A stretch of DNA of 64,000 bases from Pirellulaceae bacterium. GTDB lineage: Bacteria; Planctomycetota; Planctomycetia; Pirellulales; Pirellulaceae. Under the pieces are notes generated by a model. The model did not search any database. It worked only from the letters and a program-made list of their open reading frames with translations, and had not been told where the DNA came from. Each line of letters opens with the position of its first letter. The stretch's first letter is position 1. The position numbers and the translations under genes are program-made. Positions 11,939 through 19,658 of this stretch are shown here, piece by piece. The stretch lies in NCBI GenBank assembly GCA_026004775.1, contig BPJU01000014.1, positions 1-64,000 of the forward strand. Reading direction: 5' to 3'.

Positions 11939-11989
11939 CGTAGCGGAAGTCGCTAGGCGGCTGCGCGAGCAGCCGCCGTAAGACTTCCG
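11939..11989. repeat. palindromic REP-like element, copy a
   Basis: GTAGCGGAAGTCGCTAG and CGTAAGACTTCCG arms flank the self-complementary core GGCGGCTGCGCGAGCAGCCGCC. It is a member of a seven-copy family in this window in which arms and core change together. It lies about 40 bases upstream of the RHS-locus promoter. Confidence 0.75.
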
Positions 11990-12027
11990 ACACAAGACTT
12001 CCTCCAAAAAATTTTTCGAAAATTTTC

Positions 12028-12058
12028 TTGACAACCGCCTCGGCCCGCGCTTTATAAT
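12028..12058 (+). promoter_or_regulatory. probable sigma-70-type promoter of the RHS locus
   Basis: TTGACA (12028-12033) and TATAAT (12053-12058) are both perfect consensus boxes, separated by 19 bases, slightly longer than ideal. An A/T-rich stretch directly upstream (AAAAAATTTTTCGAAAATTTT) could serve as an UP element. Transcription would start near 12065 and run about 290 bases before the ATG at 12354. Confidence 0.6.
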
Positions 12059-12353
12059 CACCCTCGTGTAGGGGGGACGTGCTGATTCAGCATCGCGAGT
12101 TCACAACAACCGCGTTGCGGACAACCGGCTATCGAAGGCCAGTTCTGCAGCGAACCGACGAGCAGGATGCTCCGCCGGCAAGAACCTCCTCGGGTGTTCA
12201 GAAGACCTTCTCGTAAGGATTCGAGGGGTAGGTCTCACAAGAGTTCGGCATTGAGTACAGCGGCGCGCTTCTTTTTTGGCTGCGCGTGTGCTCAACCGAG
12301 CCAAAGTGACAAAGGAGCAGCGGTCAGTTCTCTTTTAGGATAAGGGGTATCTC
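12059..12353 (+). other. about 290-nt untranslated leader of the RHS-type gene
   Basis: Between the promoter and the ATG at 12354 there is no supported reading frame. The leader begins with a small inverted repeat (GTGCTGATTCAGCA) and contains several GC-rich segments that could fold. Just before the start codon are AAAGGAG (about 12311-12317) and TTAGGATAAGGGG (about 12335-12347), either of which could act as ribosome binding site. I recognise no known riboswitch. Confidence 0.35.
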
Positions 12354-13297
12354 ATGAACCGCACGAGTTGGATTGAGCTAGTACTTTCGGGGGGGGGGGG
12401 GGACTAACCTCTAAGCGGAAAAACCGTAAGCGCCGAGCCAATACCCGCCGCACGCTCATGCTCGAAGCGCTGGAAGATCGGCGCCTCTTGAACGCCTCGC
12501 CCATCGCTCGCAATGATCTTGCTTACTACACCCCGGTTGACCAACCACTGGTCGTCGATTCCACCAGCAGCCTCCTGGTTAACGACTTCGATCCGGATGG
12601 TGGCACCTTGTCGGCAAGCGTCGTCGCGAACCCTCAAAACGGCACGCTCACCGATTTTGACCCCACGTCGGGCACTTTCACCTACGTTCCCGATGCCGGC
12701 TTTAGCGGCATCGATCGCTTCACATACCAGTTGTCCGACGGCCAAGCCAGTAGCTCGGTGGCCACGGTGCAGATCGCTGTGGGTGGCCCGTTCGGCGGGA
12801 AGCTCAACGACGAGGAGTTTTCGCCCGCCGAGGCCGATCGGTCGGCAACGGGCGTGCTCTTGGCAAGCGGAGCGCTTACGCGCGAGGAACTTCTCACACC
12901 TTCGGTAAAGCTGGTGTACAACTCGCTTACGATCCCCAAGGCACTGGTGCCGCTCGAGACGTTCCTTGTGCCCGATGCGGCGGTACCGGATGAAATCCGC
13001 GCGCGGCTGGTTTTCAATGGTGTGGCCGGTGACGAATACTCGTTCGATCCCGGCACGCTCCAGCCGGGCGACTCGCTTCGCATCGTGCTTTCGGCCGACG
13101 CTACGGCGCTTCCCACGGGTCGCTATCCGTACACGATCGAGCTTCAGGCGCGCTACGGCCAGGAGCTTCAAGCACGCAGCTACGATGGCTATGTGGCGGT
13201 GGTGAACCGCTCCACGAGCGACTGGGCCTTTGGCCGCGGCTGGCAGCTTGGAGGTCTTGATCAGCTTTATCCGGAACCTTTCGCGGTCAGAAAATGA
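12354..13297 (+). pseudogene. 5' fragment of an RHS/YD-repeat surface protein, interrupted by a 14-G tract
   Basis: From the ATG at 12354 the frame reads MNRTSWIELVLS, then enters 14 consecutive G and stops at TAA 12405. In the +2 frame beyond the tract the sequence continues LTSKRKNRKRRANTRR and LMLEALEDRRLLNASP, the basic leader and LEPR-XLL-like motif of large planctomycete exported proteins. A cadherin/Ig-like 'tandem-95' domain follows (SLLVNDFDPDGGTLS through GFSGIDRFTYQLSDGQASS), then an RHS-type segment ending DWAFGRGWQLGGLDQLYPEP. There the homology breaks off and a stop comes at 13297. A tract of 12 or 15 G would restore the frame. The other route is internal initiation at 12458. 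The 3' part of the gene is missing, so it is scored as a pseudogene. Confidence 0.7.
12389..12402 (+). repeat. homopolymer of 14 G inside the RHS-type reading frame
   Basis: Fourteen G in a row lie 35 bases after the ATG at 12354. The frame that carries the conserved downstream protein has a TGA at 12374 and no start between that stop and the tract, so full-length translation depends on tract length. This is the layout of a slipped-strand phase-variation tract. An error in calling the homopolymer length is the main alternative. Confidence 0.75.
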
Positions 13298-13602
13298 ACG
13301 CAAACGTATCTACCCGCTACGTGGCTGCGCGCAACACTGGGGAATCGACCGTATGGTTCCTCGCACCCAGGCCGTTGGGCTGGGCTAAACAAAAGGCGGC
13401 CTTTCAGGCCCCTGGTTGCGAGCAACTCAAGAACGGTGTCGGCGCAGGCTTACAATTCTCTGTTGTCGACCGGCTTATTCGGGATGGCGGCATATTACCC
13501 CATGTGACCAAACCGGCAAACGATAGTCCGGCCGCAAAGAGACCGATTATAAATAGCCCGCTCCGAAAACCTGGTTAAGTTACTCTCCGTGTTCTCTGTG
13601 TG
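13298..13602 (+). other. degraded linker upstream of RHS cassette 1
   Basis: No intact gene. A segment at about 13430-13545 (translating as VVDRLIRDGGILPHVTKP in one frame) has a diverged counterpart at about 17245-17345 before cassette 2 (VVDQIIRAGGTLAHVTKP). The pair looks roughly 70-75 percent identical by eye, far more diverged than the adjoining cassettes. A short CTCTGTGTGCTCCGTGGCT repeat follows at 13591-13615. Confidence 0.5.
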
Positions 13603-15110
13603 CTCCGTGGCTAGAGCCAATAGCTGTGTCCTCTGCGGCTAACGCCAATAGCCGAGGACGCCAGCTACAAGCTCTGAGGCTGGCACGAATGTGGCTCGGC
13701 TCGATGGCGACGCTGCGCGCTTGACAAGCGGTACGCTGGCGCGCGAAATTAGCTATTCGTGGGACATCGGTACGAGACTCGTTGCGGCTTCGGATCCGGA
13801 TAGTAGCTATACGCTGGCGTACGATGACTTGGATCGCCTCGTAAGCATTGACAATCAGGGGACGCCGAACATTCCACGAGTAGTCTTGAATTCCTCATAC
13901 GATGCTTCGGGCAACCGCACGCGGCTTGCGGCCGTGATCGACGGGACGGACGATTTTGTGAACGATTACACGTACGATCTACTCAATCGCATGACCCGAG
14001 TCGACCAGTACGGCGTGGCGGGCGGCCATGCGGTGGCCGAGAAGCGAGTCGATATGGCGTATAACTCGCTGGGGCAGTTTACCCAGATTGTGCGTTATAG
14101 TGCTCTTTCCGGTACGCCGTCGGATGAGGTGGCTACTTCTGTTTACACGTATGATGCCGCGCACCGGTTGGTGGGTTTGTCGCACAATCGAGGCGGCCAG
14201 CCGCTTTTTACGCCATACAGTTGGACTTATGATCCGCTGGACCGCATCATCGAGATGGTGAACTCGGACGGAACGAGCGTTTTTACGTACGACCAGACGG
14301 ATCAGCTTACGGGTGCCGACCATTCCTATCAGACGGACGAGGCGTACCAGTACGACGCGAACGGCAACCGCACGGGCGGCGGGTATGTTACCGGGAGCAA
14401 CAACCAGCTTCTGGAGGACGGCACGTATCGGTACGAGTACGATGCGGAAGGCAATCGCACGGCGAAAGAAACGATAGCCACAGGCGAGCGTGAAGAGTAC
14501 ACGTGGGACCACCGCAATCGGCTGGTGAGGTTTTTGAGGAAAGACGCGCAAGGCGCCATCGTGCTCGATGTGCATTATTCGTACGACGTATTTGACCGGC
14601 GGATAGGCAAGACGGTGGATCCGGACGGGGATGGGCCTCAAGGAGCCGTCGTTTACGTGGTTCGTGTATGACAATCCGTCGGTGGTCACCGGCGCCTCGG
14701 ATCCGGCTCTTGTGGGAGCGGACCACATTGTGCTGGAGTTTACCGGCAGTCAACCGGCTACGCTCAAGTATCGGTATTTGCATGGCCCGGTGGTGGACCA
14801 GGTATTTGCTCGCGAGGACGTGGAGTCCTTATGGCAGCCGGGCGAGGTGTTATGGGCTTTGGGTGACCACTTGGGCACGGTGCGCGACTTGATTGACAGT
14901 AGCGGGCAACGTGGTGAACCACCTAAGGTACGAAGCCTTTGGGCGGATTACATCCGAGACGAACGCGGCGGTGGATTTCTTGTTTGCCTTTACGGGCCGC
15001 GAGCGCGACGAGGAATCGGGCCTTTTCTACTACCGAGCCCGCTATTATGACCCTGCCGTCGGGCGGTTCATCAGCGAGGATCCGCTGGGGTTCGCGGCGG
15101 GGGATGGGAA
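13603..15110 (+). repeat. RHS core cassette, copy 1 of a 1.5-kb duplication
   Basis: This segment matches 17413-18920 almost base for base, starting in the CTCTGTG...GTGGCTA repeat and ending just after the codons for SEDPLGF. By eye about 16 substitutions separate the copies over some 1.4 kb, nearly all synonymous, plus three single-base indels. The flanking sequences on both sides are different or much more diverged. Confidence 0.85.
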
Positions 15111-15819
15111 TTTGGCACGCTATGTGAGGAACGCACCCTCAGCCTTGAGCGACCCACTGGGACAAGAGGGGCTACGCCGCGACGGCCCGGCCGTATTTTG
15201 GGGAGATCCCGAGTATAAGTGGTGGTTTTGGATAAAACAAGTAAAGAATCAAAGACCAGTTGGCACTGTCGATGACGATGGTGTGGTTGTGTTTCTACCA
15301 GTGTTTGAAAAAGACGTTAAACAGCACATGGGTCAAACCACACCGCCGCTAAATCCTATGCCATGGAAAAAGCTAAAAGAATTAGCGGACGGCCGTACTT
15401 ACTCGCAGTTTATCAAGGCTCTAGTTGAAGCCCAGGCAGCCAACCCCAACAATGTATGGGAGGATGGCCGCAGTAAGGCAGACTATTGGCAATATCGTGT
15501 GACACCTAATGACCTGAAAGGACTGATACCGGAAGAAATCGAAGTAGTAAAAGCCCGGGCGAAGCAGAAGATTATAACGGCATCGGCTTCGTATACCGCC
15601 CCCGGAGCTATAGCACCATATGGGCTCGGACTGGGTGCATTAACCGCGGTAGCAGCAGGTATATTTGTAAGAGCGCCTAACATATGGACAGGCAGCGCAG
15701 TCGCTGCCGCCGTTGGGGTGGACGCCGGCGCGGCAGCGTGGTGGTTCCATCAACGAGAACGTGTGGTTAAAGCCGCCCAAGCAGCAATCCGGGATTACGT
15801 GGAAAGGGTTGGTCCATGA
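13691..15819 (+). pseudogene. RHS/YD-repeat core with C-terminal tip 1, two frameshifts
   Basis: Encodes the C-terminal RHS region of a polymorphic-toxin-like protein. YD repeats such as YDLLNRMTRVDQYG, YDANGNRTGGGY and YEYDAEGNRT are followed by the core-ending motif FYYRARYYDPAVGRFISEDP. The frame is broken by an extra A near 14643 and an extra G in the GGG at 14904-14906, judged against copy 2. After ALSDPLG (the tip junction) the frame at 14893-15819 is open and encodes a unique tip of about 215 residues. That tip has a Lys-rich soluble part and two hydrophobic helices (GLGLGALTAVAAGIF; GSAVAAAVGVDAGAAAWWF), at lower GC than the core. The tip is unlike any toxin domain I recognise. Its stop overlaps the next start (ATGA). 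Confidence 0.7.
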
Positions 15820-16574
15820 GGCAAGGGCAGGTGCAAAGAGGCAGCTGCAACGAGATCGAAGCGCGGGCGGCCCTTCGCACCTCTTATTTTATAAGCTGTT
15901 TGTTGCGTGCCGCATCTGCAATAGGTACAGTATGTGGCTCAGTAGGGACACTTGCGGCGTACGATTATTACGCGGTTCAAATGCAAAGCAGTTGGTGGGA
16001 ACTCTTACTTGCAGCTTTATTGCACTGGGTCTCAGGAAAACACCAGAAGGTTCATAATTATGCGGCATGCGTTCCATTTTTATTCGCCTTTGTGCTCGTA
16101 GTATATATCATAGTGGCAGCACAATTGTTTTGCCGCGCTATTTCACAAACGCATTTATTTATAGGCAAGGGGCCGAGTATTAAGGTGAGACAGCGGAGTT
16201 CGAAGGTACTAGCTTGGCTGATTTTGTGGATTTATTTTTCGTTTAAGTTCGGATTATTTTACTATATGGGATCAACGGTTGTGGTCATGCTGAGTCCTGA
16301 AGTCAGAGAAGCCAACAGTGAATATTATATCGTTTATATTTTCAGTGCGGCTTTGATGAGCGCTGCCAAGTTGGGAGGCATCGCCTGTGTTTGCGGGTGG
16401 ATGGCTATGGCCGCTGACATTTGTTGTCAGTGGGAGGCAGAACCGGCGTGGTCGGCAAAATATGGTCTGTCTGGTATGACAGTACCTGGAGCCGTGGGAG
16501 GCGGAAAGGAGACCCTCGATCATGCGCGGAAGGAGGCGACACACACCGGGGCAGATGGTGCGGCAGTTATGTGA
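15816..16574 (+). CDS. multi-pass membrane protein overlapping RHS tip 1; candidate immunity protein
   Basis: A 252-residue protein starting at the ATG that overlaps the tip's TGA (ATGA, 15816-15819), which implies translational coupling. GGAAAGGG just upstream can serve as ribosome binding site. Four or five hydrophobic segments are visible (for example VPFLFAFVLVVYIIVAAQLF, VLAWLILWIYFSFKFGLFYY and a late segment around MSAAKLGGIACVCGWMAMAA). The coding sequence is AT-richer than the chromosome average here. In RHS and Cdi-type systems the gene directly after a variable tip usually encodes the cognate immunity protein; that is the only basis for the proposal. The last 40 or so residues appear to be read through IS-derived DNA, so the native C-terminus may be lost. 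Confidence 0.6.
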   Translation: MRQGQVQRGSCNEIEARAALRTSYFISCLLRAASAIGTVCGSVGTLAAYDYYAVQMQSSWWELLLAALLHWVSGKHQKVHNYAACVPFLFAFVLVVYIIVAAQLFCRAISQTHLFIGKGPSIKVRQRSSKVLAWLILWIYFSFKFGLFYYMGSTVVVMLSPEVREANSEYYIVYIFSAALMSAAKLGGIACVCGWMAMAADICCQWEAEPAWSAKYGLSGMTVPGAVGGGKETLDHARKEATHTGADGAAVM

Positions 16575-16802
16575 TGCAGACGGGATGCTGGCTACCGGTC
16601 GGACGGTCGGCGGGGTTTGCACAATCTCTGGAAATCAGTGAGCGGACGTTTTACCGGTGGCGGAACCAGTACGGAGGGATGAAGGGGAAGAAACCCGACG
16701 GCTTAAGGAACTGGAGCAGGAGAACGGTGGGCTCAAGAAGCTGCTGGCGGAGGCAGAGTTGGACAAGGCGATCTTGCGGAAGGCGTTGAAGGGAAACGGC
16801 AG
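16522..16802 (+). pseudogene. truncated IS3-type transposase OrfA remnant
   Basis: Two reading frames together give an IS3-family OrfA: MRGRRRHTPGQMVRQLCDAD and ATGRTVGGVC, then, after a one-base shift near 16620, SLEISERTFYRWRNQYGGMK. A second shift near 16690 leads to ETRRLKELEQENGGLKKLL and LDKAILRKALKGN. This is the helix-turn-helix and leucine-zipper part; OrfB with the DDE core is absent. The sequence ends abruptly at a palindromic element. It marks an old insertion that also changed the end of the preceding membrane protein gene. Confidence 0.75.
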
Positions 16803-16843
16803 GTCGCTAGGCGGACGCGCTCGCGTCCGCCGTAAGACTTCCG
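16803..16843. repeat. palindromic REP-like element, copy b
   Basis: The left arm is shortened (GTCGCTAG), the core is GGCGGACGCGCTCGCGTCCGCC and the right arm is CGTAAGACTTCCG. Core bases differ from copy a on both sides of the stem. It directly abuts the transposase remnant. Confidence 0.7.
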
Positions 16844-16862
16844 TCGTTGGGTGGTTCTTGTT

Positions 16863-16913
16863 CGTAGCGGAAGTCGCCAGGCGGCTGCGCCAGCAGCCGC
16901 CGTAAGACTTCCG
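16863..16913. repeat. palindromic REP-like element, copy c
   Basis: GTAGCGGAAGTCGCCAG, core GGCGGCTGCGCCAGCAGCCGCC, CGTAAGACTTCCG. It lies in the same orientation as copy b and 19 bases after it, forming a BIME-like pair. Confidence 0.75.
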
Positions 16914-17412: not shown

Positions 17413-18920
17413 CTCTGTGGCTAAAGCCAATAGCTGTGTCCTCTGCGGCTAACGCCAATAGCCGAGGACGCCAGCTGCACGCTCTGAGGCCGGCAGGAAC
17501 GTGGCCCGGCTTGACGGCGATGCTGCGCGCTTGACAAGCGGTACGCTGGCGCGCGAAATTAGCTATTCGTGGGACATCGGTACGCGACTCGTTGCGGCTT
17601 CGGATCCGGATAGTAGCTATACGCTGGCGTACGATGACTTGGATCGCCTCGTAAGCATTGACAATCAGGGGACACCGAACATTCCACGAGTAGTCTTGAA
17701 TTCCTCATACGATGCTTCGGGCAACCGCACGCGGCTTGCGGCCGTGATCGACGGGACGGACGATTTTGTGAACGATTACACGTACGATCTACTCAATCGC
17801 ATGACACGAGTCGACCAGTACGGCGTGGCGGGCGGCCATGCGGTGGCCGAAAAGCGAGTCGATATGGCGTATAACTCGCTGGGGCAGTTTACCCAGATTG
17901 TGCGTTATCGTGCTCTTTCCGGTACGCCGTCGGATGAGGTGGCTACTTCTGTTTACACGTATGATGCCGCGCACCGGTTGGTGGGCTTGTCACACAATCG
18001 AGGCGGCCAGCCGCTTTTTACGCCATACAGTTGGACTTATGATCCGCTGGACCGCATCATCGAGATGGTGAACTCGGACGGAACGAGCGTTTTTACGTAC
18101 GACCAGACGGATCAGCTTACGGGTGCCGACCATTCCTATCAGACGGACGAGGCGTACCAGTACGACGCGAACGGCAACCGCACGGGCGGCGGGTATGTTA
18201 CCGGGAGCAACAACCAGCTTCTGGAGGACGGCACGTATCGGTACGAGTACGATGCGGAAGGCAATCGCACGGCGAAAGAAACGATAGCCACAGGCGAGCG
18301 TGAAGAGTACACGTGGGACCACCGCAATCGGCTGGTGAGGTTTTTGAGGAAAGACGCGCAAGGCGCCATCGTGCTGGATGTGCATTATTCGTACGACGTA
18401 TTTGACCGGCGGATAGGCAAGACGGTGGATCCGGACGGGGATGGGCCTCAAGGGCCGTCGTTTACGTGGTTTGTCTATGACAATCCGTCGGTGGTCACCG
18501 GCGCCTCGGATCCGGCTCTTGTGGGAGCGGACCACATTGTGCTGGAGTTTACCGGCAGTCAACCGGCTACGCTCAAGTATCGGTATTTGCATGGGCCGGT
18601 GGTGGACCAGGTATTTGCTCGCGAGGACGTGGAGTCTTTGTGGCAGCCGGGCGAGGTGCTGTGGGCTTTGGGTGACCACTTGGGCACGGTGCGCGACTTG
18701 ATTGATAGTAGCGGCAATGTGGTGAACCACCTAAGGTACGAAGCCTTTGGGCGGATTACATCCGAGACGAACGCGGCGGTGGATTTCTTGTTTGCCTTTA
18801 CGGGCCGCGAGCGCGACGAGGAATCGGGCCTTTTCTACTACCGAGCCCGCTATTATGACGCTGCGCGTGGGCCGTTTTATCAGCGAGGATCCGCTGGGGT
18901 TCGCGGGGCGAGATTTCAAC
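17413..18920 (+). repeat. RHS core cassette, copy 2 of a 1.5-kb duplication
   Basis: Near-identical partner of 13603-15110, in direct orientation about 3.8 kb downstream. Unlike copy 1 it keeps one uninterrupted frame through the whole YD-repeat core to RARYYD. Confidence 0.85.
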
Positions 18921-19658
18921 CTGTCACGATATGTTGAAAACAACAGCGTGTCCATTTCTGATCCTACAGGGCTTCTAGCCGCTGGATGTTATCCGGTGTC
19001 CACTAATATAAAACCTGTCGCAAACGGAAAGTTGAAACGAGATAACGGCGTCGACACGGTGGCTTTCGGATTATCACAGCTCTACGTCTCTCACCTGGTT
19101 TTTCGTTTGGTTGGCGCTCGCACGAATGCAGTACATGCTGACCGGATGGAAGGCCACTCAACTAGCGCGGCTTGGTCGTTACAAGGAAATGGTGGCAAGA
19201 ATAAACGCCATTATACCCCTGACGAGCTAAAAGCGATTGATTTAGGTGGTGAAGACATGGCCGCCCGAGAGCAGGTACTGGCCTTAATCGACATTATAAG
19301 GCGGCACCCTGCACCTCCTTGGTTCGCAGCTGAGCCAATTGAGTACGGGGGCCGCTGCGTTTGGTGGTCGACCAAATGCCACGAGGCCATTCTTGAAGCT
19401 CGCCGCGCTCGTGTCCGTCTTGACAGGCTCGTCATAACAGAAGAAATGAAGTATTACATCGGTCCGAATCCATTGTGGAGAGAACACCATTATCTAAAAA
19501 TTCGGCTACCGAATGGCGCGGTTTTTTATGCGGACGTTTACTGGCTTGGTGGCGAGGATCATATATTCTTTGAGCTACCCAGCTCCTTGGTAGATGAGCG
19601 AGATTACAGCGTGTATCTAAGGCGTACGTTGAATGCTATGGACGCCAGCATGCGCTAG
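17501..19658 (+). pseudogene. RHS/YD-repeat core with C-terminal tip 2, one frameshift
   Basis: Encodes the same YD-repeat core as cassette 1 (YAYNSLGQFTQIV-type repeats, then FYYRARYYD). One extra base, best placed near C18866, shifts the frame before VGRFISEDPLGF. The shifted frame then continues to 19658 through RYVENNSVSISDPTGLLAAG into a tip of about 225 residues unrelated to tip 1. The tip contains GGRCVWWSTKCHEAILEARR, WREHHYLKIRLPNGAVF and YADVYWLGGEDHIFF, a Cys...His...Asp order seen in papain- and transglutaminase-like folds. Tips with an HHYxxx-LPNG-D stretch occur in planctomycete RHS proteins as I recall them; activity is not established. There is no N-terminal region or start signal, so it behaves as an orphan cassette. 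Confidence 0.7.

Follow-up and report, generated by a model that had tools for sequence, protein, structure and literature searches.

The 64-kb window (the whole stretch of DNA analyzed here) carries on its forward strand the 5' part of a multicopy Rhs-type gene, in which a long G tract separates the start codon from the leader. The unit common to the copies of this family starts near 12018, as judged by comparing their sequences, and close to this 5' edge lies a weak promoter-like arrangement, TTGACA, 19 nt and TATAAT (12028..12058), recognized by eye; a program scan restricted to spacings of 16–18 nt returned no promoter. A ribosome-binding-site-like AAGGGG (12342..12347) stands 6 nt 5' of ATG 12354, and a similar context, TTAGGGGTGGCTC, precedes the in-frame ATG of a relative, G043 (here G labels denote relatives' genomes, and C labels contigs). 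The preliminary description had placed exactly 14 G at 12389..12402, a stop (TAA 12405) closing the frame of ATG 12354, and a TGA at 12374 in the frame of the leader motif, with no start codon in that frame before the tract; re-reading the sequence confirms each point, and its arithmetic, by which a tract of 12 or 15 G would join the two frames, is correct. The start codon thus opens an ORF of only 17 residues (12354..12407), and the tract, our proposed length switch, begins twelve codons after it. Between tract and motif the translation gives a basic leader stretch (12403..12457), found also in the copy on C8, which is in frame. The motif itself, LEALEDRRLL (12461..12490), scores 13.5 of 17 bits against NF012209 and 17.6 of 25.5 bits against PF07595 (21.1 bits in the genome search, same cut-off), and because these values lie under the curated cut-offs we call it only LEPR-XLL-like; its presence suggests that the organism is a planctomycete. 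After TGA 12374 the motif frame stays open to 13297, ATG 12458 being its sole start codon ahead of the motif; its 298-residue portion (12401..13297) is the N-terminal piece of an Rhs protein, with a cadherin/Big_9-like domain at residues 31–127 (PF17963, 64.5 bits against a cut-off of 23.6).

Further downstream the window copy is disrupted. Its 3' part had been described as lost, which holds for about 3.4 kb of the middle of the gene, corresponding to the Rhs repeats of intact copies; but about 0.4 kb of filler (13274..13679) substitutes for them, and core-plus-tip pieces persist beyond it. The first ~150 bp of the filler are also present in other truncated copies of the family. Two displaced pieces of Rhs core follow on the forward strand, at 13679..15131 and 17489..18932; compared with the corresponding 3' core of C8, the first is 93.2% and the second 93.1% identical. 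ORFs 13691–14671 and 14893–15819 divide YD repeats, Rhs core and a variable tip among different frames. The first displaced piece scores above the cut-off with both TIGR01643 (50.9 bits) and TIGR03696 (78 bits, cut-off 32.5), and with PF05593 (cut-off 22) the window yields 79.3 bits, and the second displaced piece 80 bits, which places these pieces among YD-repeat/Rhs proteins; the earlier label "RHS-type" therefore holds by homology. For the C-terminal tips, a Pfam search at 0.01 gave no match. A 252-residue ORF (15816–16574), itself without a Pfam match, lies directly 3' of the first tip, a position that suggests it could be the partner of that tip. A palindromic element, GTAGCGGAAGTCGC(T/C)AGGCGGCTGCG...CGCCGTAAGACTTCCG, was noticed by eye at ~11950–12000, just 5' of the family upstream region, and again at 16800–16910, 3' of the first tip. 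Since no intact gene follows its tract, the window copy is best taken as a probable relic or donor for recombination, in keeping with the caution already voiced about it (relic, or of consequence only if recombination occurs); being truncated, it is not a gene that is otherwise intact in an OFF state.

A search of the 6.14-Mb assembly for runs of at least ten G returned five, with lengths of 14, 13, 10, 14 (the window) and 14. The four runs of 13–14 G lie on four contigs, at the homologous site of four paralogs, between start codon and leader motif, and these paralogs have upstream region, start codon and leader in common; this placement takes the G-run pattern far beyond chance at genome scale. 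Inside the window the excess is modest: nine-G matches, counted with overlaps, number six where 1.29 would be expected, and 3 of 100 shuffled sequences reached that count. The fifth run (10 G, C12; L023) was rejected as a family member and sits in an array of G-rich/CT-rich dispersed repeats. By protein search, the genome has family copies or fragments at eleven places, eight of which keep the leader. Half of these eight have a pure tract (13 G on C8; 14 G on C23, C6 and in the window), and the other four a short or interrupted one (C1, C25, C3 with 8 G, and C20). The two intact copies, C8 and C23, encode cadherin/Rhs proteins of ~2,100 residues: C8 is in frame from its ATG over 2142 residues (PF05593, 361 bits for the protein), and C23 is one base out of frame and otherwise intact, with an open frame of 2111 codons from an internal ATG. 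One of the four pure-tract paralogs is accordingly in frame and three are out, C6 and the window copy having downstream breaks as well.

Such a picture might be expected of a decaying multicopy family, whose repeats and frame breaks would be neutral pseudogene accidents with no selected switching. Most copies in the genome are indeed truncated, and the majority of those bearing repeats are out of frame. The intact but out-of-frame C23 argues the other way: over 1884 codons it differs from C8 with dS 0.221 and dN 0.0305 (ratio 0.138), with one single-codon gap and no stop, and the ratio is 0.08–0.28 in all 13 scorable 150-codon blocks. C23 does not look dead, and it is what an otherwise intact gene in an OFF state would look like. 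Divergence between C8 and C23 varies along the gene, which fits recombination between copies. Truncated copies likewise have low ratios, 0.03–0.15, in their 5' parts (window, C1, C25 and C6; C3, where similarity ends early, and C20, unaligned, are left out), and these could stem from selection, recent truncation or gene conversion; because these copies are equally low, the constraint on C23 may in part be gene conversion. Between the window and C1 the filler is 100% identical, although their 5' parts differ, and in other copies it is 72–97% identical, which would point to exchange between copies.

Relatives were searched with a profile of the region 3' of the cadherin domain (A1). With the own genome included each time, 70 of 241 genomes matched at family level (1e-15), 11 of 396 drawn genomes at order level (1e-50), and 2 of 392 drawn genomes at phylum level (1e-40). 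The leaders analyzed outside the own genome belong to 19 copies, G393 and G826 included; matches without a recognizable leader, those broken upstream (G135, G108:C158), those with other N-terminal domains, and weaker matches were left out. A repeat stands between start and motif in five of the 19, which come from four other genera: 8-nt units in G041:C435, (TCAAAGCC)4, and G108:C4, (TTCAGCAC)11; a 2-nt unit in G157:C70, (CA)21; and single-nucleotide runs in G115:C1, G11, and G115:C2, G9. Unit lengths of 1, 2, 8 and 8 are not divisible by three, as is typical of the non-triplet repeats of phase-variable genes. In all five, the apparent start codon, chosen by position and upstream context, is out of frame, and the motif is not preceded by any in-frame ATG; in G041:C435 and the two G115 copies, GTG and TTG too are missing from the motif frame ahead of it. 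An in-frame ATG is present in 13 of the 14 repeat-free copies, the exception being G393, which has G4AG5 and an in-frame GTG only. The difference between repeat-bearing and repeat-free copies gives a Fisher p of 0.0005, or 0.0037 with near-identical rows collapsed, and 0.0018 with G393 and G136 both counted against; G136 (G7) has two ATGs, of which the upstream one is out of frame and the second in frame. The repeat-bearing genes differ in condition, G115:C1 retaining an open frame of 2181 codons with its 11-G leader, which again speaks against simple decay, and G157:C70 ending, truncated, after ~600 codons.

The G041 sister copy on C76, with a single unit, is in frame. Repeat counts differ between paralogs, 13 versus 14 G in the own genome and 1 versus 4 units in G041, each in a single assembly; with one assembly per genome, length variation is visible only between paralogs. 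The preliminary description had proposed looking for homologous tracts elsewhere, and they were found, in the own paralogs and, as G11 and G9, in G115. A G tract at the homologous site is absent from the closest relatives read, G043, G041, G010 and G063, and among 30 loci around 12-G runs (one per genome, with a fairly narrow motif pattern) only that of the own C6 precedes the leader motif. In two further leaders, G136:C451 (L159, G7) and G393:C153 (L214, G4AG5), the motif and the upstream ATG are in different frames; judged by their sequences, these are possibly young or eroded switches.

In a tree of 23 rows, the own copies group with the repeat-free G043 (98/99) and the two G041 copies with each other (100/100), while G157:C70 falls amid repeat-free rows (96/94) and G108 next to the repeat-free G111 (88/81). 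The G115 pair stands alone on a long branch. The deep forks of the tree are weak, and two of its long branches meet. Given four unit sequences and this scatter, five separate gains of a repeat would be the simplest reading of the tree, and several origins with different units at one site would imply selection for stochastic expression.

How unusual such repeats are was gauged in five genomes, each with a repeat (the own genome, G041, G157, G108 and G115). The TTCAGCAC tandem array is unique to the G108 leader and the TCAAAGCC array to that of G041, and (CA)9 or longer occurs in the G157 leader and at one other place, in G115. That (CA)10, on C7, was rejected as a leader switch: stops lie nearby in all three frames, and the leader motif was not seen. 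G115 has 11 runs of at least 9 G, the longest being the C1 leader run, with the C2 leader run among those of 9 G. Very long G runs in some other relatives (e.g. G069, G081, G093), several of them at contig ends, are probably sequencing artifacts, and raw G-run counts are for that reason unreliable between genomes. A PF07595 search of the five genomes found the leader motif at 82 places or more, 7 of them in the own family; 150 of 295 candidates were scored in G041 and 150 of 212 in G108. In the 75 other leader-motif genes scored, no repeat stands between start and motif; a G8 precedes the ATG of one of them. Of the 75, 70 have an in-frame ATG, 4 offer just GTG or TTG, and the remaining gene sits at the edge of a contig. 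Repeats (at least 9 G, or a CA or 8-nt array) therefore occur in 9 of 15 leader-bearing Rhs-type copies versus 0 of 75 others (p 7e-9), and in 5 of 7 versus 0 of 69 with the own genome excluded (p 1e-6); because the genomes were chosen for their repeats and the copies are related, these p values are only a guide, and the comparison is valid within genomes. Recurrence at one site in several genera, yet in none of these 75 genes, speaks against neutral accidents, and we regard the decay of a multicopy family as an unlikely account of the repeats.

The same control bears on where translation starts. If it began after the tract, at ATG 12458 of the motif, the tract would merely lie in leader RNA, and every one of the seven own leader-bearing copies that retain this ATG has it in frame. 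It has, however, no ribosome-binding-site-like sequence, and starting there would drop the basic stretch; most other leader-motif genes have an ATG further upstream, G043 retains the upstream ATG and its context in frame, and three relatives' copies (G041:C435 and the G115 pair) are without any ATG, GTG or TTG in the motif frame. A late start is thus highly improbable. Scarcely any likelihood attaches to the idea that the lengths reflect homopolymer errors of sequencing or assembly, the true lengths being fixed and every copy in frame. Errors are frequent in long homopolymers, and this genome carries the family in several copies; but four copies, each on a contig of its own, have long runs, non-homopolymer arrays of 32–88 nt are likewise out of frame, and a one-base error would alter the state inferred for a copy and not the presence of the repeats.

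Long homopolymers can also make polymerases or ribosomes slip, so that transcriptional slippage or programmed ribosomal frameshifting might supply some in-frame protein from every copy with the DNA unchanged. (CA)21 and both 8-nt arrays are atypical slippage sites for either machinery, and the site does not hold a conserved homopolymeric or heptameric slippery sequence, since relatives also have CA arrays, 8-nt arrays or no repeat there. All four unit types can be accounted for by replication slippage; slippage during transcription or translation would at best explain the G tracts, and we hold this last account to be very unlikely.

The preliminary description proposed phase variation, and for the family this is supported by the tract in four paralogs, the constrained out-of-frame C23 and the non-triplet repeats in four genera. 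In our judgment the best explanation, and a probable one, is a recurrent, independently evolved slipped-strand ON/OFF phase variation of the cadherin/Rhs (YD-repeat) family. Replication slippage would alter the number of repeat units in the leader; with unit lengths of 1, 2 or 8 nt, gain or loss of one would shift the frame of the start codon against that of the leader motif, so that translation would be permitted or aborted. In the OFF state translation would stop or run out of frame ahead of the motif, and neither export nor function would then be expected. The copies of this genome for which the switch would count are the intact ones, the in-frame C8 and the out-of-frame C23. The protein is probably exported, and cadherin-like domain, YD-repeat shell and variable tips together suggest a surface or contact effector; an Rhs/YD-repeat shell with variable tips is a familiar arrangement. 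Slippage in living cells, its effect on the protein, export and any benefit are what we infer from sequence. Some observations count against a switch: 8 of 9 pure-repeat copies are out of frame, when three in frame would be expected at random, and G136 and G393 have an out-of-frame upstream ATG without a long repeat. OFF states may be favored, or some copies may be decaying, and the truncation of repeat-bearing copies (window, C6, G157:C70) also fits decay.

The class of mechanism is already known from repeat-mediated phase-variable (contingency) genes, such as the poly-G/C loci of Campylobacter jejuni and the repeat loci of Neisseria (PMC6321876, PMC4965091, PMC5320596). Like these, the family has a non-triplet repeat in the 5' coding part of a surface-type gene, where one unit more or less would shift the frame; the differences are that the proposed switch belongs to planctomycete-type genomes of 5–9 Mb, has four units at one site and, in the genomes read, is confined to a single family of giant Rhs genes. 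With polymorphic Rhs/YD-repeat proteins (PF05593, TIGR03696) the family shares YD repeats, Rhs core, variable C-terminal tips and displaced core-plus-tip pieces, and from them the cadherin-like N-terminal part and the LEPR-XLL-like leader with its repeat switch set the family apart. That leader resembles the LEPR-XLL/Planctomycete extracellular type (NF012209, PF07595) in having an N-terminal basic stretch followed by LEALEDRRLL, and differs in its sub-cut-off scores and in the repeat switch unseen in the other leader-motif genes scored. Among the titles and abstract openings listed, largely outside the subscription literature, neither planctomycete phase variation nor a repeat-switched Rhs gene is reported, which is weak evidence that the gene family, the organism group and the repeated separate origin are new. 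The literature consulted also included PMC3711429, PMC4060949, PMC4287609 and PMC11868660. If the explanation is true, repeat-based phase variation, best known in small-genome, host-adapted bacteria, extends to large-genome planctomycetes and has there been directed repeatedly at a single family of giant Rhs-type genes. Four repeat units gained separately at one site would then amount to a natural experiment that points to selection for stochastic expression; cell-to-cell heterogeneity could be tested directly by counting tract lengths in reads that already exist, and any gene caller labeling such genes broken would require correction.

More tentatively, and with less than even confidence, we consider a two-layer diversification, in which stochastic switching by the leader repeats would turn individual genes on or off in each cell and combine with tip exchange by recombination, giving a clonal population a shifting mixture of surface-type or contact effectors. 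The displaced core-plus-tip pieces beside truncated copies would here swap tips with intact genes, and the truncated copies with such pieces may be relics or a store of tips. Layouts resembling that of the window, a truncated unit with displaced core and tip, also occur at C1, C22, C7, C6 and C25, and one C6 piece (L021) matches the 3' end of C8 and its downstream region at 98.2% identity over 3.9 kb.
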